NCBI GenBank assembly: GCA_946497955.1
Contig: CAMMMH010000011.1
Span: 1 to 47,097 of the forward strand
From: an uncultured Mycoplasmatota bacterium
GTDB lineage: Bacteria > Bacillota_I > Bacilli_A > RF39 > UBA660
Length of the DNA stretch: 47,097 bases
Direction: 5' to 3'
The notes beneath the pieces were generated by a model, which was not told where the DNA came from, did not search any database, and saw only the letters and a program-made list of their open reading frames with translations. Made by a program: the position numbers and the translations under genes. Positions 26,219 through 47,097 of this stretch are shown one piece after another (the stretch's first letter is position 1; the number at the start of each line of letters is the position of its first letter).

Positions 26219-27106
26219 TTATTTATCTAAATGCATTATTTCTAGTATTCTTGTTAAGTCATTAGCATTTGTAAAACTTATTTCTAGTTTATTATTTCTT
26301 ATCTTTACTTTTGTACCTAGTTTTTCACATAAATCACTTTCTAAGTAAGAGTATTCATTATCTTTAGCTTTTGATTTATGAGGTGTTATTTCTTTTTTAC
26401 GATGATATTCTTCTTTAGAATTGGTTAACTCTTCTAGTCTTCTAACACTTAGATTTTCATTTATTGTCTTTTCTGCTAGACTTATAGCTTGCTCTTTATC
26501 TTCAAGCTTACTTAGGACTCTAGCATGTCCCATACTTAGTTCACCTTTTACTACTTCGTCTTTTATTTCATTAGGCAAAGTTAAAAGTCCTAGCATATTA
26601 GTAATATGACTTCTTGATTTACCTACTTTCTTAGCAAGTTCTTCTTGTGTTAGATTAAGTCTAGTCTTTAAGGCATTATAGGCTTCTGCTTCTTCCATAG
26701 CACTTAAGTTTTCTCTTTGTAAGTTTTCAAGTAAAGCTATTTCCATCATTTCTTCATCAGTAAAGTCTTTAATGATGGCTGGTATGGTAGTTAAGCCTGC
26801 TAGTCTTGAAGCTTTAACACGACGTTCTCCTGCTATTATTTCATAGCCTTTAATACTTTTTTTAGCAATTATAGGTTGAAATACACCATGCTCTTTGATA
26901 GATGAAGCTAATTCATTAAGACTTTCTTCATCAAAGTTTTTACGAGGTTGATAAGGGTTACTTCTTAATTCATCTAGATTTAGATTTACTATCTGGTCTT
27001 TTGGAGTGTTATTTATTATCTTTTCTTCTACATCAGCAATATTTAATTGTTCACTATTAAATAATTCTTCAAGACCTTTTCCTAAAGCACGCCTTTTATT
27101 TTCCAT
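26219..27106 (-). CDS. parB: Chromosome partitioning protein ParB (Spo0J)
   Basis: ParB binds parS, spreads as a CTP-dependent clamp and loads SMC near the origin. The 295-aa protein has an N-terminal Soj-interacting segment (RRALGKGLEELF) and a CTPase domain with GERR (IIAGERRVKASR). The helix-turn-helix reads GKSRSHITNMLGLLTLP, with a GHAR motif, and a dimerisation domain follows. At the positions known to separate ParB from Noc it has Arg in GKSR and Gly in SMGHAR, which are parS-type. ATG 27106 is chosen over a TTG at 27115; it overlaps soj by 11 bases. Likely target sites lie after gyrA. Confidence 0.96.
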   Translation of the reverse strand: MENKRRALGKGLEELFNSEQLNIADVEEKIINNTPKDQIVNLNLDELRSNPYQPRKNFDEESLNELASSIKEHGVFQPIIAKKSIKGYEIIAGERRVKASRLAGLTTIPAIIKDFTDEEMMEIALLENLQRENLSAMEEAEAYNALKTRLNLTQEELAKKVGKSRSHITNMLGLLTLPNEIKDEVVKGELSMGHARVLSKLEDKEQAISLAEKTINENLSVRRLEELTNSKEEYHRKKEITPHKSKAKDNEYSYLESDLCEKLGTKVKIRNNKLEISFTNANDLTRILEIMHLDK

Positions 27107-27884
27107 TTCTATCAATCACTTCCTTTGCTAAGTTTAGATAAGCTTCTGAGCCTTTACTCTTAGGGTCATATACTATTATAGGTTCTCCATGGGATGGAGC
27201 TTCTGTTAATCTGATTAGTCTCGGTATAATAGTATTATATACCTTTTCTTTGAAAAACTTTCTAATATCATCTACTACTTCAAAACCTAAGTTAGTTCTT
27301 GAATCTAACATCGTTAGTAAGACTCCTTCTATATCTAGATTAGGATTTAATTGTTTTTGAGCAAGTCTTATTGTATTTAGTAATTGCATTATTCCTTCTA
27401 GAGCAAAGAACTCACATTGAACTGGAATAATAACAGAGTCACTTGCTGTTAGGGCATTTGTTGTAATTAATCCTAATGATGGAGGACAATCAATTATTAT
27501 AAAATCAAAAGTTTCATCTTCTAACTCTTTTAGATGATATTTTAATTGGGCTCCTTTTGCAAAACCAGGTTCACTCTGACTTTTTTCAAGTAGTTCAATA
27601 TCAAGACCTGCTAAATTTATTGTTGCAGGTAGTACATATAGTTTTTTATATTTAGTTTTAATCATGGCATCTTTGGTACTGCATTTATTTGTTAGAACAT
27701 CATATACACTTACATCTATATCTCCCTTATTTATTCCTACTCCTGTTGTGGTATTACCTTGAGGGTCTAAGTCTATTAATAATACTTTTTTACCAAGAAA
27801 TGCTAATGAGGCAGAAAGGTTAATACTTGTTGTTGTCTTTCCTACTCCACCTTTTTGATTAACTAAAGAAATTACCTTTGCCAT
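27096..27884 (-). CDS. soj: Chromosome partitioning ATPase ParA (Soj)
   Basis: A 262-aa deviant-Walker ATPase that works with ParB in origin segregation and regulates DnaA in Bacillus. KGGVGKTT (11-18) carries the signature Lys, followed by DLDPQGNTTTG and the DCPPSLG Walker B region. It is expressed from its own candidate promoter (27917-27945), after the noc terminator. Confidence 0.97.
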   Translation of the reverse strand: MAKVISLVNQKGGVGKTTTSINLSASLAFLGKKVLLIDLDPQGNTTTGVGINKGDIDVSVYDVLTNKCSTKDAMIKTKYKKLYVLPATINLAGLDIELLEKSQSEPGFAKGAQLKYHLKELEDETFDFIIIDCPPSLGLITTNALTASDSVIIPVQCEFFALEGIMQLLNTIRLAQKQLNPNLDIEGVLLTMLDSRTNLGFEVVDDIRKFFKEKVYNTIIPRLIRLTEAPSHGEPIIVYDPKSKGSEAYLNLAKEVIDRNGK

Positions 27885-27954: not shown

Positions 27955-27982
27955 CTAAAAAAGTAGATTTAACTCTACTTTT
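27955..27982 (-). terminator. Intrinsic terminator of noc
   Basis: Minus-strand stem AAAAGTAGA/TCTACTTTT (9 bp, 6-nt loop) followed by TTAG. It touches the noc stop. Confidence 0.75.
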
Positions 27983-29426
27983 AGCTGTTATTATTTTCTT
28001 TAGATATTTTAATAGTTATCTGATAGTTATTAACAAGGTCCATTTCTTCACTATCTACTTTAAAGCCTGACTCTTCTATTTTCTTTAGAGTTTCTCTTAC
28101 TAGATTTATAGATTCATTTAGAGTATATTTTGGTTTATTTTCTTTTTGTTGTTCTTCACTTGCTTTTACATTGTCGCTAAAGATTGGATTGTGAGCGAAT
28201 GGATTATTAAATGTATCTATACTTGGTACTGATGGTGTATCTTTAACAGAAGCATTGTTATTGGTATTAACTCCTGCTAGTAAGTTATCCATAGATGTAC
28301 TAGTAGAATCTTTTAAATCTTTAGTCTCTCCTCCTAAGTTAAAAGGATTATCATTGATGAAAGGAGCATTGGTTGGAGCAGGGGCATCAAACATGGATAC
28401 TGATGATTCTTGTTTTTGGGGTGCCTCTTTAGTTTCTTCTTCCATAGGTGAGAAAAATTTAAAATTACCTTTTTCTTCTTTCTTCTCTTCTTTAGGTGCA
28501 ACTTTTAAAAACTCACTAATATTATTAGTAGCATTAGTATCATTAGTTGGATTTAATGTATTTATATCTTTTGCATTATCTTTTATAGCATTTATATCAA
28601 TAGATTTATTAGCAGTACTCTCTAAGTTATCATTTATATTTGGTACATCGTAATCAATAAATTTTGGAGGAGTTGAATAATCAATTCCTACACTTGTATT
28701 AAAATCATTATTAGGATTAGTATTATTAGTATTAGTTGGAACATTTAAAGAGTTTGTTTGAGGCATAGTAGCACTAACAGGTGATGGATTTAATAAGGCA
28801 TCTATATCACTTTTTGTTATTTCTTCTTTAGGATTTATTTTTTCCTCTAATTCTCTTACAGTCATTTTCTTATCTATAACTTCTTTTAATAATTGTTTTT
28901 GAGTCTCAGGGTCTTTGGCATTTAATAAGGCTCTAGCATGACGTTCTGAGATTTGGTCTTTTAAAAGAGCATCTTGGACTTCATCTGTTAAAGATAAAAG
29001 ACGTAGTTTATTGGCAACAGCACTTTGACTTTTACCCATAGTTTTAGCAAGTTCTTCTTGAGTCATTTGGTCAAGTTCAAGAATTTTTTGATATGTTTTT
29101 GCTTCTTCGATTGGGTTTAAGTTCTTACGTTGTAAGTTTTCAAGAAGAGCGACTTTGCTACTTTCTTTATCATCCAAATTACGAACAATAGCTGGTATAG
29201 TTGTAAGTCCTGCCATAGCTGAGGCTTTATAACGACGTTCTCCTGCTATTATTTCATACTTATTACCAATGTTACGAACAATAATTGGTTGAATTACACC
29301 ATGTTCTTTGATAGATACTGCTAACTCTTTTAAAGCTTTTTCATCAAATACTTGTCTTGGTTGAAATCTATTTGGAATTATATCATCTAAATGTAAATAT
29401 ACTACTTCGTTTTCTTTATTATCCAT
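27981..29426 (-). CDS. noc: Nucleoid occlusion protein Noc, with long disordered insert
   Basis: A ParB-family CTPase that binds Noc-binding sites and keeps FtsZ from assembling over the nucleoid. Position after rsmG is diagnostic. Conserved part (about 5-205): NRFQPR, the CTP motif AGERRYKAS and the helix-turn-helix GKSQSAVANKLRLLS with ISERHAR. Gln in GKSQ, Lys in ANK and Arg in SERHAR are Noc-type specificity residues. Unlike Bacillus Noc (about 280 aa), it lacks the N-terminal amphipathic membrane helix and has an Asn/Thr/Pro/Ser-rich linker of about 220 residues. A short C-terminal domain (last 50 residues) follows, probably for dimerisation. ATG 29426 has AGAGGG 7 bases upstream. Confidence 0.9.
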   Translation of the reverse strand: MDNKENEVVYLHLDDIIPNRFQPRQVFDEKALKELAVSIKEHGVIQPIIVRNIGNKYEIIAGERRYKASAMAGLTTIPAIVRNLDDKESSKVALLENLQRKNLNPIEEAKTYQKILELDQMTQEELAKTMGKSQSAVANKLRLLSLTDEVQDALLKDQISERHARALLNAKDPETQKQLLKEVIDKKMTVRELEEKINPKEEITKSDIDALLNPSPVSATMPQTNSLNVPTNTNNTNPNNDFNTSVGIDYSTPPKFIDYDVPNINDNLESTANKSIDINAIKDNAKDINTLNPTNDTNATNNISEFLKVAPKEEKKEEKGNFKFFSPMEEETKEAPQKQESSVSMFDAPAPTNAPFINDNPFNLGGETKDLKDSTSTSMDNLLAGVNTNNNASVKDTPSVPSIDTFNNPFAHNPIFSDNVKASEEQQKENKPKYTLNESINLVRETLKKIEESGFKVDSEEMDLVNNYQITIKISKENNNS

Positions 29427-29497
29427 ATACATACCCTCTTTATTCTATTCTTTTATTTTTCTACTAATCTCATTATATCATTAATTGTACTAGTTTG

Positions 29498-36697: not shown

Positions 36698-37573
36698 TTA
36701 AATATATTTAATTTTTCTTTTAATTTCTAAATTAGGCAGTTTTTTTACTTTTATTTCTTCTAAATTAGTAAATTCCTTACTCATATTAAATAAATCTTCT
36801 TTGTCTTCTATAAAATCTTCTTCTTTTAAACCCATATCATCTAATATAATTTTAGCGACATAATTTGTTATTTCTATTTCTTTCTTTTCTTCTTCAGTTA
36901 CTTCTTTTTTAGAATCTAATTCAGTAAATCTTCTCTCTAGTTGGTCTGTTTTTATTGTGTTTTCATAAAAACTATCATAGCCTATTATTTCTTCTTCTAC
37001 AAAAACTCGGCAAGATACATATCTATCATATAAATTTTTTAATTTTTCACTAATAAGATTAATTTCTTTTTCTCTTTGTTCTTTGCTTTCTAAAGTTTGA
37101 TATATAGTTATTCCTCCCAAATTCCTATTATAATAATATTCTGGAATTTTATTTCTATATGGTGAATGATAATTGTAATCATATTCAAATACATTTATCC
37201 TTTTTTTACTTCTTGTAACGAAAGATAGATTTAAAGAGTTTTCTCTAACATCAATAGGCTTATCAAATCTATTAATTTCTATAGGTAAATTATTCTCCTT
37301 TATTAGTTTAATACTTCTATTATAGATATTATAAATTGAAGCATAACGATAAATAGAAAGTTCAGTTATTATTTCTTTATTCTTTATCGTTGTATTATCT
37401 TTTATAACTGAAAATTCTAACTCTATTAAAGAGTCTAGATATTCAATTATTTCCTTTGATAATATTTCTTTATATCTTTCTAATAATAGTTTTAGTTCTT
37501 CCTTTGATAATAATGAGCTTTTTTCTTTATCTGTTGCTTTTACTAAATCTAATAATTTAATTAAATCTTTCAT
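36698..37573 (-). CDS. Hypothetical protein (291 aa)
   Basis: Unrecognised soluble protein next to oriC, between rpmH and dnaA. It is helical and charged at both ends (about 1-75 and 165-255), with a Tyr/Asn-rich middle (YDYNYHSPYRNKIPEYYYN). No signal or membrane segment. GGGAGG precedes the ATG. In most Firmicutes nothing separates rpmH from the dnaA intergenic region, so this is an insertion of lineage-specific material at the origin. Confidence 0.65.
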   Translation of the reverse strand: MKDLIKLLDLVKATDKEKSSLLSKEELKLLLERYKEILSKEIIEYLDSLIELEFSVIKDNTTIKNKEIITELSIYRYASIYNIYNRSIKLIKENNLPIEINRFDKPIDVRENSLNLSFVTRSKKRINVFEYDYNYHSPYRNKIPEYYYNRNLGGITIYQTLESKEQREKEINLISEKLKNLYDRYVSCRVFVEEEIIGYDSFYENTIKTDQLERRFTELDSKKEVTEEEKKEIEITNYVAKIILDDMGLKEEDFIEDKEDLFNMSKEFTNLEEIKVKKLPNLEIKRKIKYI

Positions 37574-37621
37574 TTTGAACCTCCCTTGATATTTAAAATA
37601 AGTACTTACATTTCTATATTA

Positions 37622-37803
37622 ACATATCTTTTCCACTATTTCCACATGATGTGGAAAACAGATATTAACTTGTGAATTATAAATTTGTGGAAAATGTGGA
37701 AAACTCTGTTTTTTGTTGATATATGTCGATTTTAGTTGTGGAGAAATTTGTCGAAAAATTGTGGAAAACTAAAAAATTAAAAATACCTATTCCTTTTTCC
37801 ACA
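37622..37803. other. oriC, upstream DnaA-box cluster
   Basis: Region ahead of dnaA dense in DnaA-box-like 9-mers of the TTTTCCACA type: TGTGGAAAA at 37650-37658, 37686-37694, 37695-37703 and 37760-37768, TGTGGAGAA at 37737-37745, and TTTTCCACA at 37795-37803. Most point the same way, and two are directly adjacent. Strand polarity of the whole window switches here. They may also autoregulate dnaA. Confidence 0.85.
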
Positions 37804-40634: not shown

Positions 40635-41102
40635 ATGAAAGATTATGAAATTAATGATGAGACACTTGCGATTATGCCTGGTGAAGATTTATGGGATTCT
40701 GTTGTTGTTGAAGATGACTGTAATTATGAGGTTAATATGAGGCCTTTAGAAATAATTAATTATAGTTGTAAATATTTTGGTAGTTCTTATCATGGTAGAA
40801 AAGAAGGTTCTAAGGGGATATTAAATAGCAGTTATAAGTTGCCAATTTTAGTTGAGGATACTAGAAATTTAGTATTTTTTCCTACAACTAGTCCAATTGA
40901 CGATGATTGTAGTTGGATTTCTTTAAAAAATATTAAAGAATATCGTCGCCTTGATCCTAACAATACAGAAGTTGAATTTAAAAATGGCAAAATCTTGAAA
41001 GTTAATATTTCTTATAATTCGTTTAATAATCAAGTTATGAGAGCAAGTAGATTAGAATCTATTACAAGAAATCGAAGAGAAAAAGCAGAAAAAGAAAAAT
41101 AA
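40635..41102 (+). CDS. comK: ComK-like competence transcription factor
   Basis: ComK is the master activator of competence in Bacillus, binding A/T-boxes. The 155-aa protein aligns along its length: YEINDETLAIMPGED at the N-terminus, YEVNMRPLEIINYSCKYFGSSYHGRKEGS (about 31-59), then CSWISLKNIKEY, TEVEFKNGK and ISYNSFNNQVMRA. It ends about 35-40 residues before the Bacillus C-terminus, the part needed there for MecA-dependent degradation, so stability control may differ. Its place between dnaN and recF is where Bacillus has the S4-domain gene yaaA. No competence machinery genes are in the window. Confidence 0.88.
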   Translation: MKDYEINDETLAIMPGEDLWDSVVVEDDCNYEVNMRPLEIINYSCKYFGSSYHGRKEGSKGILNSSYKLPILVEDTRNLVFFPTTSPIDDDCSWISLKNIKEYRRLDPNNTEVEFKNGKILKVNISYNSFNNQVMRASRLESITRNRREKAEKEK

Positions 41103-46710: not shown

Positions 46711-46724
46711 CTTCTTCTTTTTTT
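46684..46724 (+). terminator. Intrinsic terminator of recF-gyrB-gyrA
   Basis: GAAGAAG (46684-46690) can pair with CTTCTTC (46711-46717), followed by seven T. The 5' arm lies in the last gyrA codons and the loop is long, so the exact stem is uncertain. Confidence 0.6.
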
Positions 46725-46740
46725 AAGCTTTATATATCAA

Positions 46741-46756
46741 TGTTTCACGTGGAACA
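46741..46756. other. parS site 1
   Basis: TGTTTCACGTGGAACA; its reverse complement TGTTCCACGTGAAACA fits the Bacillus parS consensus TGTTNCACGTGAAACA exactly. Predicted target of the ParB at 26219-27106. Confidence 0.9.
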
Positions 46757-46798
46757 TATAAAGAAGTAGATGAAACTATATAGAGAAGCAGTAAAATT

Positions 46799-46812
46799 AT
46801 TTCCCGGGAAAT
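46799..46812. other. Noc-binding site 1
   Basis: ATTTCCCGGGAAAT, identical to the Bacillus Noc-binding-site consensus, inside a perfect 24-bp palindrome (46794-46817). Predicted target of the Noc at 27981-29426. Centre 57 bp from parS site 1. Confidence 0.88.
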
Positions 46813-46867
46813 AATTTAGATAGAAGTAAGTATTAAATTTATCGTTTTTTTCAGCTTTATATATCAA

Positions 46868-46883
46868 TCTTTCACGTAAAACA
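46868..46883. other. Degenerate parS site 2
   Basis: TCTTTCACGTAAAACA differs from TGTTTCACGTGAAACA at two positions, one in the core. Probably weakened or lost for ParB, while the Noc site of the same unit is intact. Confidence 0.65.
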
Positions 46884-46924
46884 TATAAAAAATTGATAAA
46901 ACTATATAGAGAAGTAGTAAAATT

Positions 46925-46938
46925 ATTTCCCGGGAAAT
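46925..46938. other. Noc-binding site 2
   Basis: ATTTCCCGGGAAAT, perfect, in the same extended palindrome as the other copies; centre 56 bp from degenerate parS site 2. Confidence 0.88.
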
Positions 46939-46993
46939 AATTTAGGTAGAAGTAAGTATTAATTTTATACTTTATTTAAAGCTTATATACTAA

Positions 46994-47009
46994 TGTTTCA
47001 CGTGGAACA
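46994..47009. other. parS site 3
   Basis: TGTTTCACGTGGAACA, identical to site 1 and matching the parS consensus on the reverse strand. Confidence 0.9.
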
Positions 47010-47051
47010 TATAAAGAAGTTAATAAAACTATATAGAGAAGCAGTAAAATT

Positions 47052-47065
47052 ATTTCCCGGGAAAT
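47052..47065. other. Noc-binding site 3
   Basis: ATTTCCCGGGAAAT, perfect; centre 57 bp from parS site 3. Confidence 0.88.
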
Positions 47066-47097
47066 AATTTAGGTAGAAGTAAGTATTAATTTTATAC

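Follow-up and report, generated by a model that had tools for sequence, protein, structure and literature searches.

The 47,097-nt window analysed here, the whole of contig C11 in the draft genome of an uncultured Mycoplasmatota bacterium, ends downstream of gyrA in a tandem array in which parS sites alternate with Noc-binding sites (NBS). We interpret this array as an origin-proximal centromere-like locus with interleaved loading sites for two CTP-clamp proteins, ParB and a Noc-like paralogue, a reading that we consider probable (roughly two chances in three). The sites themselves, their order, location, and conservation, the matching recognition residues of the two proteins, and a gene set with ParA and SMC are all directly observed.

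Three direct repeats, starting 126 and 127 bp apart, fill the last 386 bases of the window. Their coordinates confirm the sequence-only reading, which had described three repeats of 126-127 bp, each with a parS-like 16-mer and a perfect ATTTCCCGGGAAAT at a centre spacing of 56-57 bp:

46712..47097, + strand: three composite repeat units, found by direct-repeat detection; the array goes on in contig C15 (L007:1-210)
46741..46756, + strand: parS site 1, TGTTTCACGTGGAACA, one mismatch to the consensus TGTTTCACGTGAAACA
46798..46813, unstranded: NBS 1, perfect over 16 bp, core ATTTCCCGGGAAAT at 46799-46812, 24-bp palindrome at 46794-46817
46868..46883, + strand: parS site 2, TCTTTCACGTAAAACA, two mismatches to the consensus TGTTTCACGTGAAACA
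46924..46939, unstranded: NBS 2, perfect over 16 bp, core ATTTCCCGGGAAAT at 46925-46938, 24-bp palindrome at 46920-46943
46994..47009, + strand: parS site 3, TGTTTCACGTGGAACA, one mismatch to the consensus TGTTTCACGTGAAACA
47051..47066, unstranded: NBS 3, perfect over 16 bp, core ATTTCCCGGGAAAT at 47052-47065, 24-bp palindrome at 47047-47070

Each ATTTCCCGGGAAAT together with its flanks matches the published 16-bp NBS consensus TATTTCCCGGGAAATA (PMC7383237) at 16 of 16 positions and lies inside a perfect 24-bp palindrome. The centres of parS and the following NBS are 57, 56, and 57 bp apart in the three units, and those of NBS and the next parS are 70 bp apart in both instances. A chance origin of the sites was excluded by two sets of shuffles: the expectation was 0.00 for the parS pattern and for the NBS pattern in 100 dinucleotide shuffles of the window, and 200 mononucleotide shuffles of the 81 gyrA-downstream intervals of the family gave 0 sites. 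The direct-repeat structure makes it clear that the units arose via tandem duplication.

The array is cut by the end of the window, and with it of contig C11. Two further parS and NBS pairs stand at the start of contig C15, followed by an SRP RNA gene, tadA, dnaX, ebfC, and recR (the last two named from their own sequence). The initial 50-odd bases of C15 repeat a stretch of the window's third unit before diverging, and the array comprises four units at the least and possibly five or more. In the relative G008, gyrA, the array, and tadA are consecutive on an unbroken contig; the stretches of GyrA compared between G008 and the window are 100% identical. Because unbroken relatives show this gyrA-array-tadA order, a single array most likely spans the break between C11 and C15. 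The earlier claim that parS and NBS are packed into one origin-proximal array is therefore borne out, and the array is larger than had been claimed, since it continues on C15.

The genome to which the window belongs is 1.72 Mb in 81 contigs and 92% complete, and its predicted origin region lies upstream of the array on the same contig:

37573..37800, unstranded: origin region, with the GC-skew minimum at 37645 and a run of DnaA-box-like 9-mers (at most one mismatch) next to dnaA
37723..39228, + strand: dnaA
44260..46710, + strand: gyrA, which precedes the array

The distance from the GC-skew minimum at dnaA to the start of the array is 9.1 kb. A ComK-family gene lies between dnaN and recF (40635-41102), where a competence regulator is not usually found. 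The NBS 14-mer occurs six times in the 1.72-Mb genome, each time perfectly, with five copies in the array and one about 7 kb beyond it; the window's own three copies match the full 16-mer TATTTCCCGGGAAATA, and no NBS with one or two mismatches was found anywhere in this genome. The six sites thus occupy the end of C11 and the first 7 kb of C15 and are not spread over the origin-proximal chromosome. The lone perfect NBS is at C15:6881 (L007:6881-6894), 10-25 bp upstream of pth, the start codon of which is uncertain; a lone NBS between rsmI and pth is also seen in G008 and G016. All four parS sites with at most one mismatch are in the array, as is a fifth site with two mismatches, and two lone look-alikes with two mismatches, on C7 and C18, do not have the central CACGTG. 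It is worth noting that genome totals of relatives are counts of exact 12-bp NBS cores, and mismatched NBS were sought genome-wide in the window's own genome; the confinement of NBS is therefore strictly shown for this genome only. The sequence-only reading would have failed had the two motifs occurred separately elsewhere and relatives had no such array; the genome-wide site search and the recurrence of the array in the same gyrA-tadA interval of relatives show that this is not the case.

The candidate proteins for both kinds of site are encoded side by side in the window:

26219..27115, - strand: parB, 298 aa, with ParB_N, HTH_ParB, and ParB_C domains, the ParA-binding motif LGKGL, and residues R173 and G201
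27096..27884, - strand: parA, a soj-type ATPase (AAA_31 match, 2.3e-68), overlapping parB
27981..29432, - strand: noc-like gene, 483 aa, with ParB_N and HTH, residues Q173, K179, and R201, a linker of more than 200 aa, and a short conserved C-terminal end

The products of the first two genes are consistent with a chromosomal ParABS system. A ParA Walker-type ATPase gene stands beside parB, and ParB carries, besides its HTH domain, the ParA-binding motif LGKGL (defined as LG[R/K]GL; PMC12704722) and the CTP-fold motifs GERR and ENLQR. ParB is closest to Spo0J chain 6sdk in a phmmer search of PDB chains. The sites near the origin comprise four array parS with one mismatch and one with two, 9.1 kb from the skew minimum, and an SMC-type protein is encoded on contig C56. 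Two further ParB_N-domain proteins are encoded elsewhere in the genome, at C12:41611 and C6:14059 (open frames of 321 and 357 aa; L017, L018). The specificity code has been given as R173/G201 for parS and as Q173, a lysine at 179 or 184, and R201 for NBS, the Q and R plus one lysine being sufficient for NBS recognition (PMC7383237). The ParB of the window has R173, M179, T184, and G201 and is thus of parS type; in the family, R173 is present in 16/16 ParB sequences examined and G201 in 15 of the 16, with a serine at 201 in G042.

The paralogue, the gene of which sits between parA and rsmG, has Q173, K179, S184, and R201 and is thus of NBS type. The Q173/K179/R201 set is found in all 33 of the family Noc-like proteins examined and, as Q, K, and R, in 8/8 outgroup Noc. 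The protein is closest to the solved Noc chains 7nfu, 7ng0, and 7ol9 (phmmer) and scores 300.5 bits on the NCBIfam model TIGR04285, below the cut-off of 315, a model on which the window's ParB reaches 234.3. No N-terminal amphipathic helix was found, as the protein starts MYMDNKENEVVYLHLDDIIPN and the open frame runs only 4 residues before the start Met (by eye). Residues 4-6 align with residue 24 of the solved Noc chains, so the N-terminus is about 20 residues shorter and has no room for a membrane helix. Among the outgroups, N-termini vary: those of G104, G093, G098, and G120 are longer, with FDFLG or VFNIF, and those of G117 and G095 are no longer and start MNIF. We use the name Noc-like because of the shortened N-terminus, the long linker, and the score below the TIGR04285 cut-off. 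Since Noc without its N-terminal membrane helix has impaired nucleoid occlusion in B. subtilis (PMC8429893), and since the linker is long, classical nucleoid occlusion is uncertain here, and a nucleoid-occlusion role of this predicted protein is unproven.

Noc-like open frames in the family measure 346-728 aa, compared with 267-306 aa in most outgroups; the outgroup G115 (f17; L166) has a 675-aa Noc-like protein with MALFNRK at its start and DGFWNLFK at the end of an unusually long C-terminal extension. Short motifs in the linker (GIDYSTPPKFIDY, FKFF, SMD-LLAGV, and NPFA-NPIF) reappear in slightly altered form in the eight genus sequences compared by eye, the third of them being absent from G020. 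The long linker of the family proteins is a possible partner-binding or membrane-targeting segment.

On a wider search of relatives, both motifs share the gyrA-tadA interval in 10/10 complete genus loci and in 46/81 family intervals. The composite pattern was found in 27 of 35 genus genomes, in 2 of 20 from other genera of the family, and in none of 35 class outgroups. The gyrA 3' end is present in 29 of the 35 genus genomes, 27 of which have sites downstream, and the two loci that do not reach a contig end 74 and 283 bp past gyrA. The genus members without sites (G005, G009, G029, and G031) either have no gyrA 3' end in the assembly or belong to these truncated loci. The sample consists of draft assemblies that are often broken at the array. 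The ten complete genus intervals all hold both motifs and account for 48 of the 54 exact NBS cores in their genomes.

Across the family, 81 genomes have a gyrA 3' end, and with at most one mismatch per site, 72 of the intervals hold parS, 51 NBS, and 46 both. These intervals, complete or cut by a contig end (54,467 bp), contain 180 NBS and 279 parS, compared with 25 and 8 in the flanks of these loci (306,277 bp). For the 52 genomes of other genera, the counts are 47 with parS, 24 with NBS, and 21 with both; the interval is free of NBS in 28 of the 52, and 11 of these 28 stop short at the end of a contig. Outside the genus, 34 intervals are complete, and 23 of the 62 NBS cores in the genomes concerned lie within them. 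Confinement of NBS to the interval is thus strong in the genus and weaker outside, as judged from these sequences. Because other genera often have no NBS in the interval, and only 23/62 cores lie inside it, the composite form is not required family-wide. In ten class outgroups, no site with at most one mismatch was found in the ~2.7 kb that follow gyrA. A perfect 12-bp NBS core is absent from five class outgroups whose Noc-like protein is of Q-K-R type (G093, G095, G106, G117, and G120); these five and the contig-cut genus loci make the co-occurrence of NBS with Noc a weak test.

A scan of named genomes for the composite pattern gave at least 117 stretches. Among the matches listed, 80 loci can be sorted by title: 57 from Bacilli, Bacillales, Erysipelotrichaceae, or Tenericutes, 6 from an "uncultured bacterium", 1 from Candidatus Onthousia, and 16 others. 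Hits in unrelated organisms, among them Chryseobacterium, Paenibacillus, and an Acidobacteria bin, were set aside as single matches, about 15 being expected by chance in a rough count with uniform bases. Planomicrobium okeanokoites and a Planococcus sp. (L283, L286) have one composite match each, of 53-54 bp, and such like-length matches in related genera could be more than chance. A viral origin was rejected, as a viral-contig scan for the composite pattern gave one stretch, which has no site by the 14-mer criterion.

In the mechanism that we propose, a parS cluster in the gyrA-tadA interval, ~9 kb from oriC, would have received interleaved NBS, about one per parS in the genus. CTP clamps of these two families load onto DNA at parS (ParB) and NBS (Noc) and then slide; ParA is stimulated by the ParB complex (PMC8429893). 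Because both families slide in this way, ParB loaded at parS and the Noc-like paralogue loaded at NBS would sit adjacently as CTP-dependent clamps on the same ~0.4-2 kb, mix in the array, and spread into one another's territory. Both proteins would mark one point, the origin, in contrast to a Noc that marks tens of scattered places. ParA and SMC would act on the ParB part, as ParB recruits SMC at parS (PMC7333895), and the Noc-like protein would restrain division or another origin-linked process there; in B. subtilis, Spo0J and Noc jointly oppose early Z rings (PMC6852036). We infer binding, simultaneous occupancy, spreading, and segregation-division coupling, and we favour a mixed centromere complex that would tell segregation and division alike where the origin lies. 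The simplest forms of the mechanism put forward in the sequence-only reading, be it coupling or clamps that block each other, have two details against them: the varying spacing of the sites and the missing N-terminal membrane helix. We suggest, as a tentative extension that is possible rather than probable, that in this family, and above all in this genus, the paralogue shifted from a chromosome-wide division inhibitor to a part of the centromere, with a mixed ParB/Noc complex at the origin and a linker that, substituting for the missing membrane helix, would reach a division or replication partner.

The restriction of NBS to the vicinity of the origin in the window's own genome, the absence of an N-terminal extension, and the long linker with its recurring motifs in eight genus sequences would also fit a Noc-like protein that has left nucleoid occlusion and acts as an origin-bound adaptor, for example for replication initiation or for a partner recognised by the linker. 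In S. aureus, Noc restrains replication initiation (PMC5540599). We regard this alternative as somewhat unlikely, because a MinC C-terminal domain was not found in the 92% complete genome, so that a second control on division would be needed all the more; moreover, a membrane contact could sit in the linker, and the link to DnaA is hypothetical.

The arrangement of the sites bears on a second alternative, in which NBS shape the spreading of ParB, or parS that of Noc, through mutual roadblock or retention. A dimer held at each NBS would slow or stop ParB sliding between two units, keeping it dense over the array and off gyrA and tadA. Strict alternation of parS and NBS is seen in 14 of the 27 genus loci with sites (parS counted with up to one mismatch), so that parS is bracketed by NBS; DNA-bound TetR attenuates ParB-CTP spreading in vitro (PMC7053999); and neighbouring sites in genus arrays are mostly 56-74 bp apart, so mutual exclusion is not forced. 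However, Noc with CTP itself slides as a clamp (PMC8429893) and would make a poor fixed block, the arrays of G018 and G017 contain runs of parS with no intervening NBS, and distances vary widely, all of which makes this alternative unlikely. A fixed parS-NBS spacing or helical phasing was rejected, as neighbouring spacings of 27, 38, 45, 49, 57, 58, 60, 68, and 70 bp occur across lineages; this variation implies no fixed ParB-Noc geometry. In the genus member G020 (L198), gyrA is followed by nine NBS, 74-83 bp apart, with no parS in the available part.

Turnover of the units is informative about whether NBS are simply passengers, that is, whether an NBS lying by chance in one unit was copied along when the parS cluster was duplicated, with no joint function. 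The units are clearly products of tandem duplication, and parS without NBS is common outside the genus (parS in 47/52 intervals, NBS in 24/52), both as hitchhiking would predict. By contrast, conservation within the units is highest in the NBS columns: identity between genus genomes is 99.0% in NBS columns, 91.9/88.8% in parS columns, and 69.9/79.7% in spacers, as computed from 32 units of spacing 57 (9 genomes) and 30 units of spacing 58 (8 genomes), with pairs of fewer than 8 differences left out. Both motifs also occur with other unit lengths, of about 76, 76, 66, 62, and 79 bp in G011, G027, G038, G047, and G056 and irregular in G022 and G048. Because unit lengths vary while the motifs persist, we argue for selection on both sites and not on one spacing. 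The spacers of these seven genomes are no more similar to those of the window than shuffled ones, in a low-power test that the related G013 also fails. Among spacer pairs (G000 being the window's genome), G000-G015, G015-G013, G011-G027, and G027-G048 are above the shuffled range and most are within it. GyrA identity to the window is 60% in G056 and 64% in G055, and 59-74% in genera with parS and no NBS in the interval; sequence comparison suggests that the interleaved form may have arisen more than once. In G056 (L194, L389), there are two gyrA copies, each followed by a different parS/NBS array, and the bin may for this reason mix two organisms.

NBS are also found inside the coding sequence of dnaX, about 300-380 codons past Walker A, in 12 of 15 family genomes that were picked because a site lay near (L347, L351, L355, L356, L358, L369, L371, L375, L377, L195, L391, and L385; one with a mismatch). 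The site is read in two frames, as ISREI in nine and as YFPGN or YFPGK in three, and the neighbouring residues differ. The use of two frames suggests that a DNA site, rather than the DnaX protein sequence, is kept near the origin, and this, too, argues against passive copying, which on balance is quite improbable.

It would be very improbable that the ATTTCCCGGGAAAT palindrome is read by some other protein, such as a regulator or methylase, or forms an RNA hairpin, unrelated to Noc. The five class outgroups with a Q-K-R Noc-like protein and no perfect 12-bp core are in its favour, and binding in the family is predicted only; however, the 16/16 match to the published consensus (PMC7383237) is accompanied by fitting recognition residues in the neighbouring paralogue, a perfect palindrome leaves no hairpin loop, and several tandem copies would be unlike a terminator. 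The chance that the repeat is an assembler product is negligible: the window and many contigs of relatives do stop inside or at the array, but complete single-contig intervals with both motifs, built of different units, are present in 10 genomes of the genus and in 14 others of the family.

Overall, the proposed interleaved centromere for ParB and the Noc-like protein would bear on the timing of segregation relative to division, an old open question, as here the DNA itself sets both loading sites adjacent. The arrays of different lineages differ in their units yet keep both motifs, and one 127-bp unit allows a direct two-clamp test. A Noc-like protein whose genomic sites amount to nearly one locus is a natural case that separates where Noc acts from how it acts. 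If the tentative shift of the paralogue into the centromere is true, the DNA sequence itself would build two different clamp proteins into a bacterial centromere.

Several known systems share parts of this arrangement. The chromosomal ParABS (Soj/Spo0J) system is alike in its ParA, its ParB with parS-type residues and LGKGL, its several parS near oriC, and its SMC; unlike it, each parS in the window is paired with the site of a second paralogue, in tandem units within one intergenic interval. Noc/NBS of Bacillus subtilis and Staphylococcus aureus share the recognition residues, the 16-bp NBS, the location of the gene beside parA-parB, and the CTPase-fold motifs. In B. subtilis, however, about 70 NBS lie around most of the chromosome (PMC4331003), and in S. 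aureus all but one of 41 Noc loci are in the origin-proximal half (PMC5540599), whereas here there is one array plus one site ~7 kb off, no N-terminal helix, and a long linker. The tools mParSpot and ParSite (PMC11109969, PMC11798528) are alike in using ParB/parS and, in mParSpot, Noc/NBS as separate clamps in one cell, but they are artificial, work in the living cells of another kind of organism, and do not involve natural interleaved sites. Among the matches listed from the open-access literature, the titles and abstract starts do not describe natural interleaved parS/NBS units.

In plasmid RK2, KorA near the loading site can reportedly change the spreading of the KorB clamp. The KorB-KorA pair (PMC11790492) may be likened to a clamp and a second DNA-bound protein, and the ParB and TetR roadblock (PMC7053999) is alike in that a second DNA-bound protein near the loading site alters clamp spreading. 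In both of these cases, the second protein is not a CTP-clamp paralogue, and the sites are not interleaved in an array. Origin-proximal parS clusters and Noc/NBS are each known; their interleaving in one array is, as far as we have seen, new.
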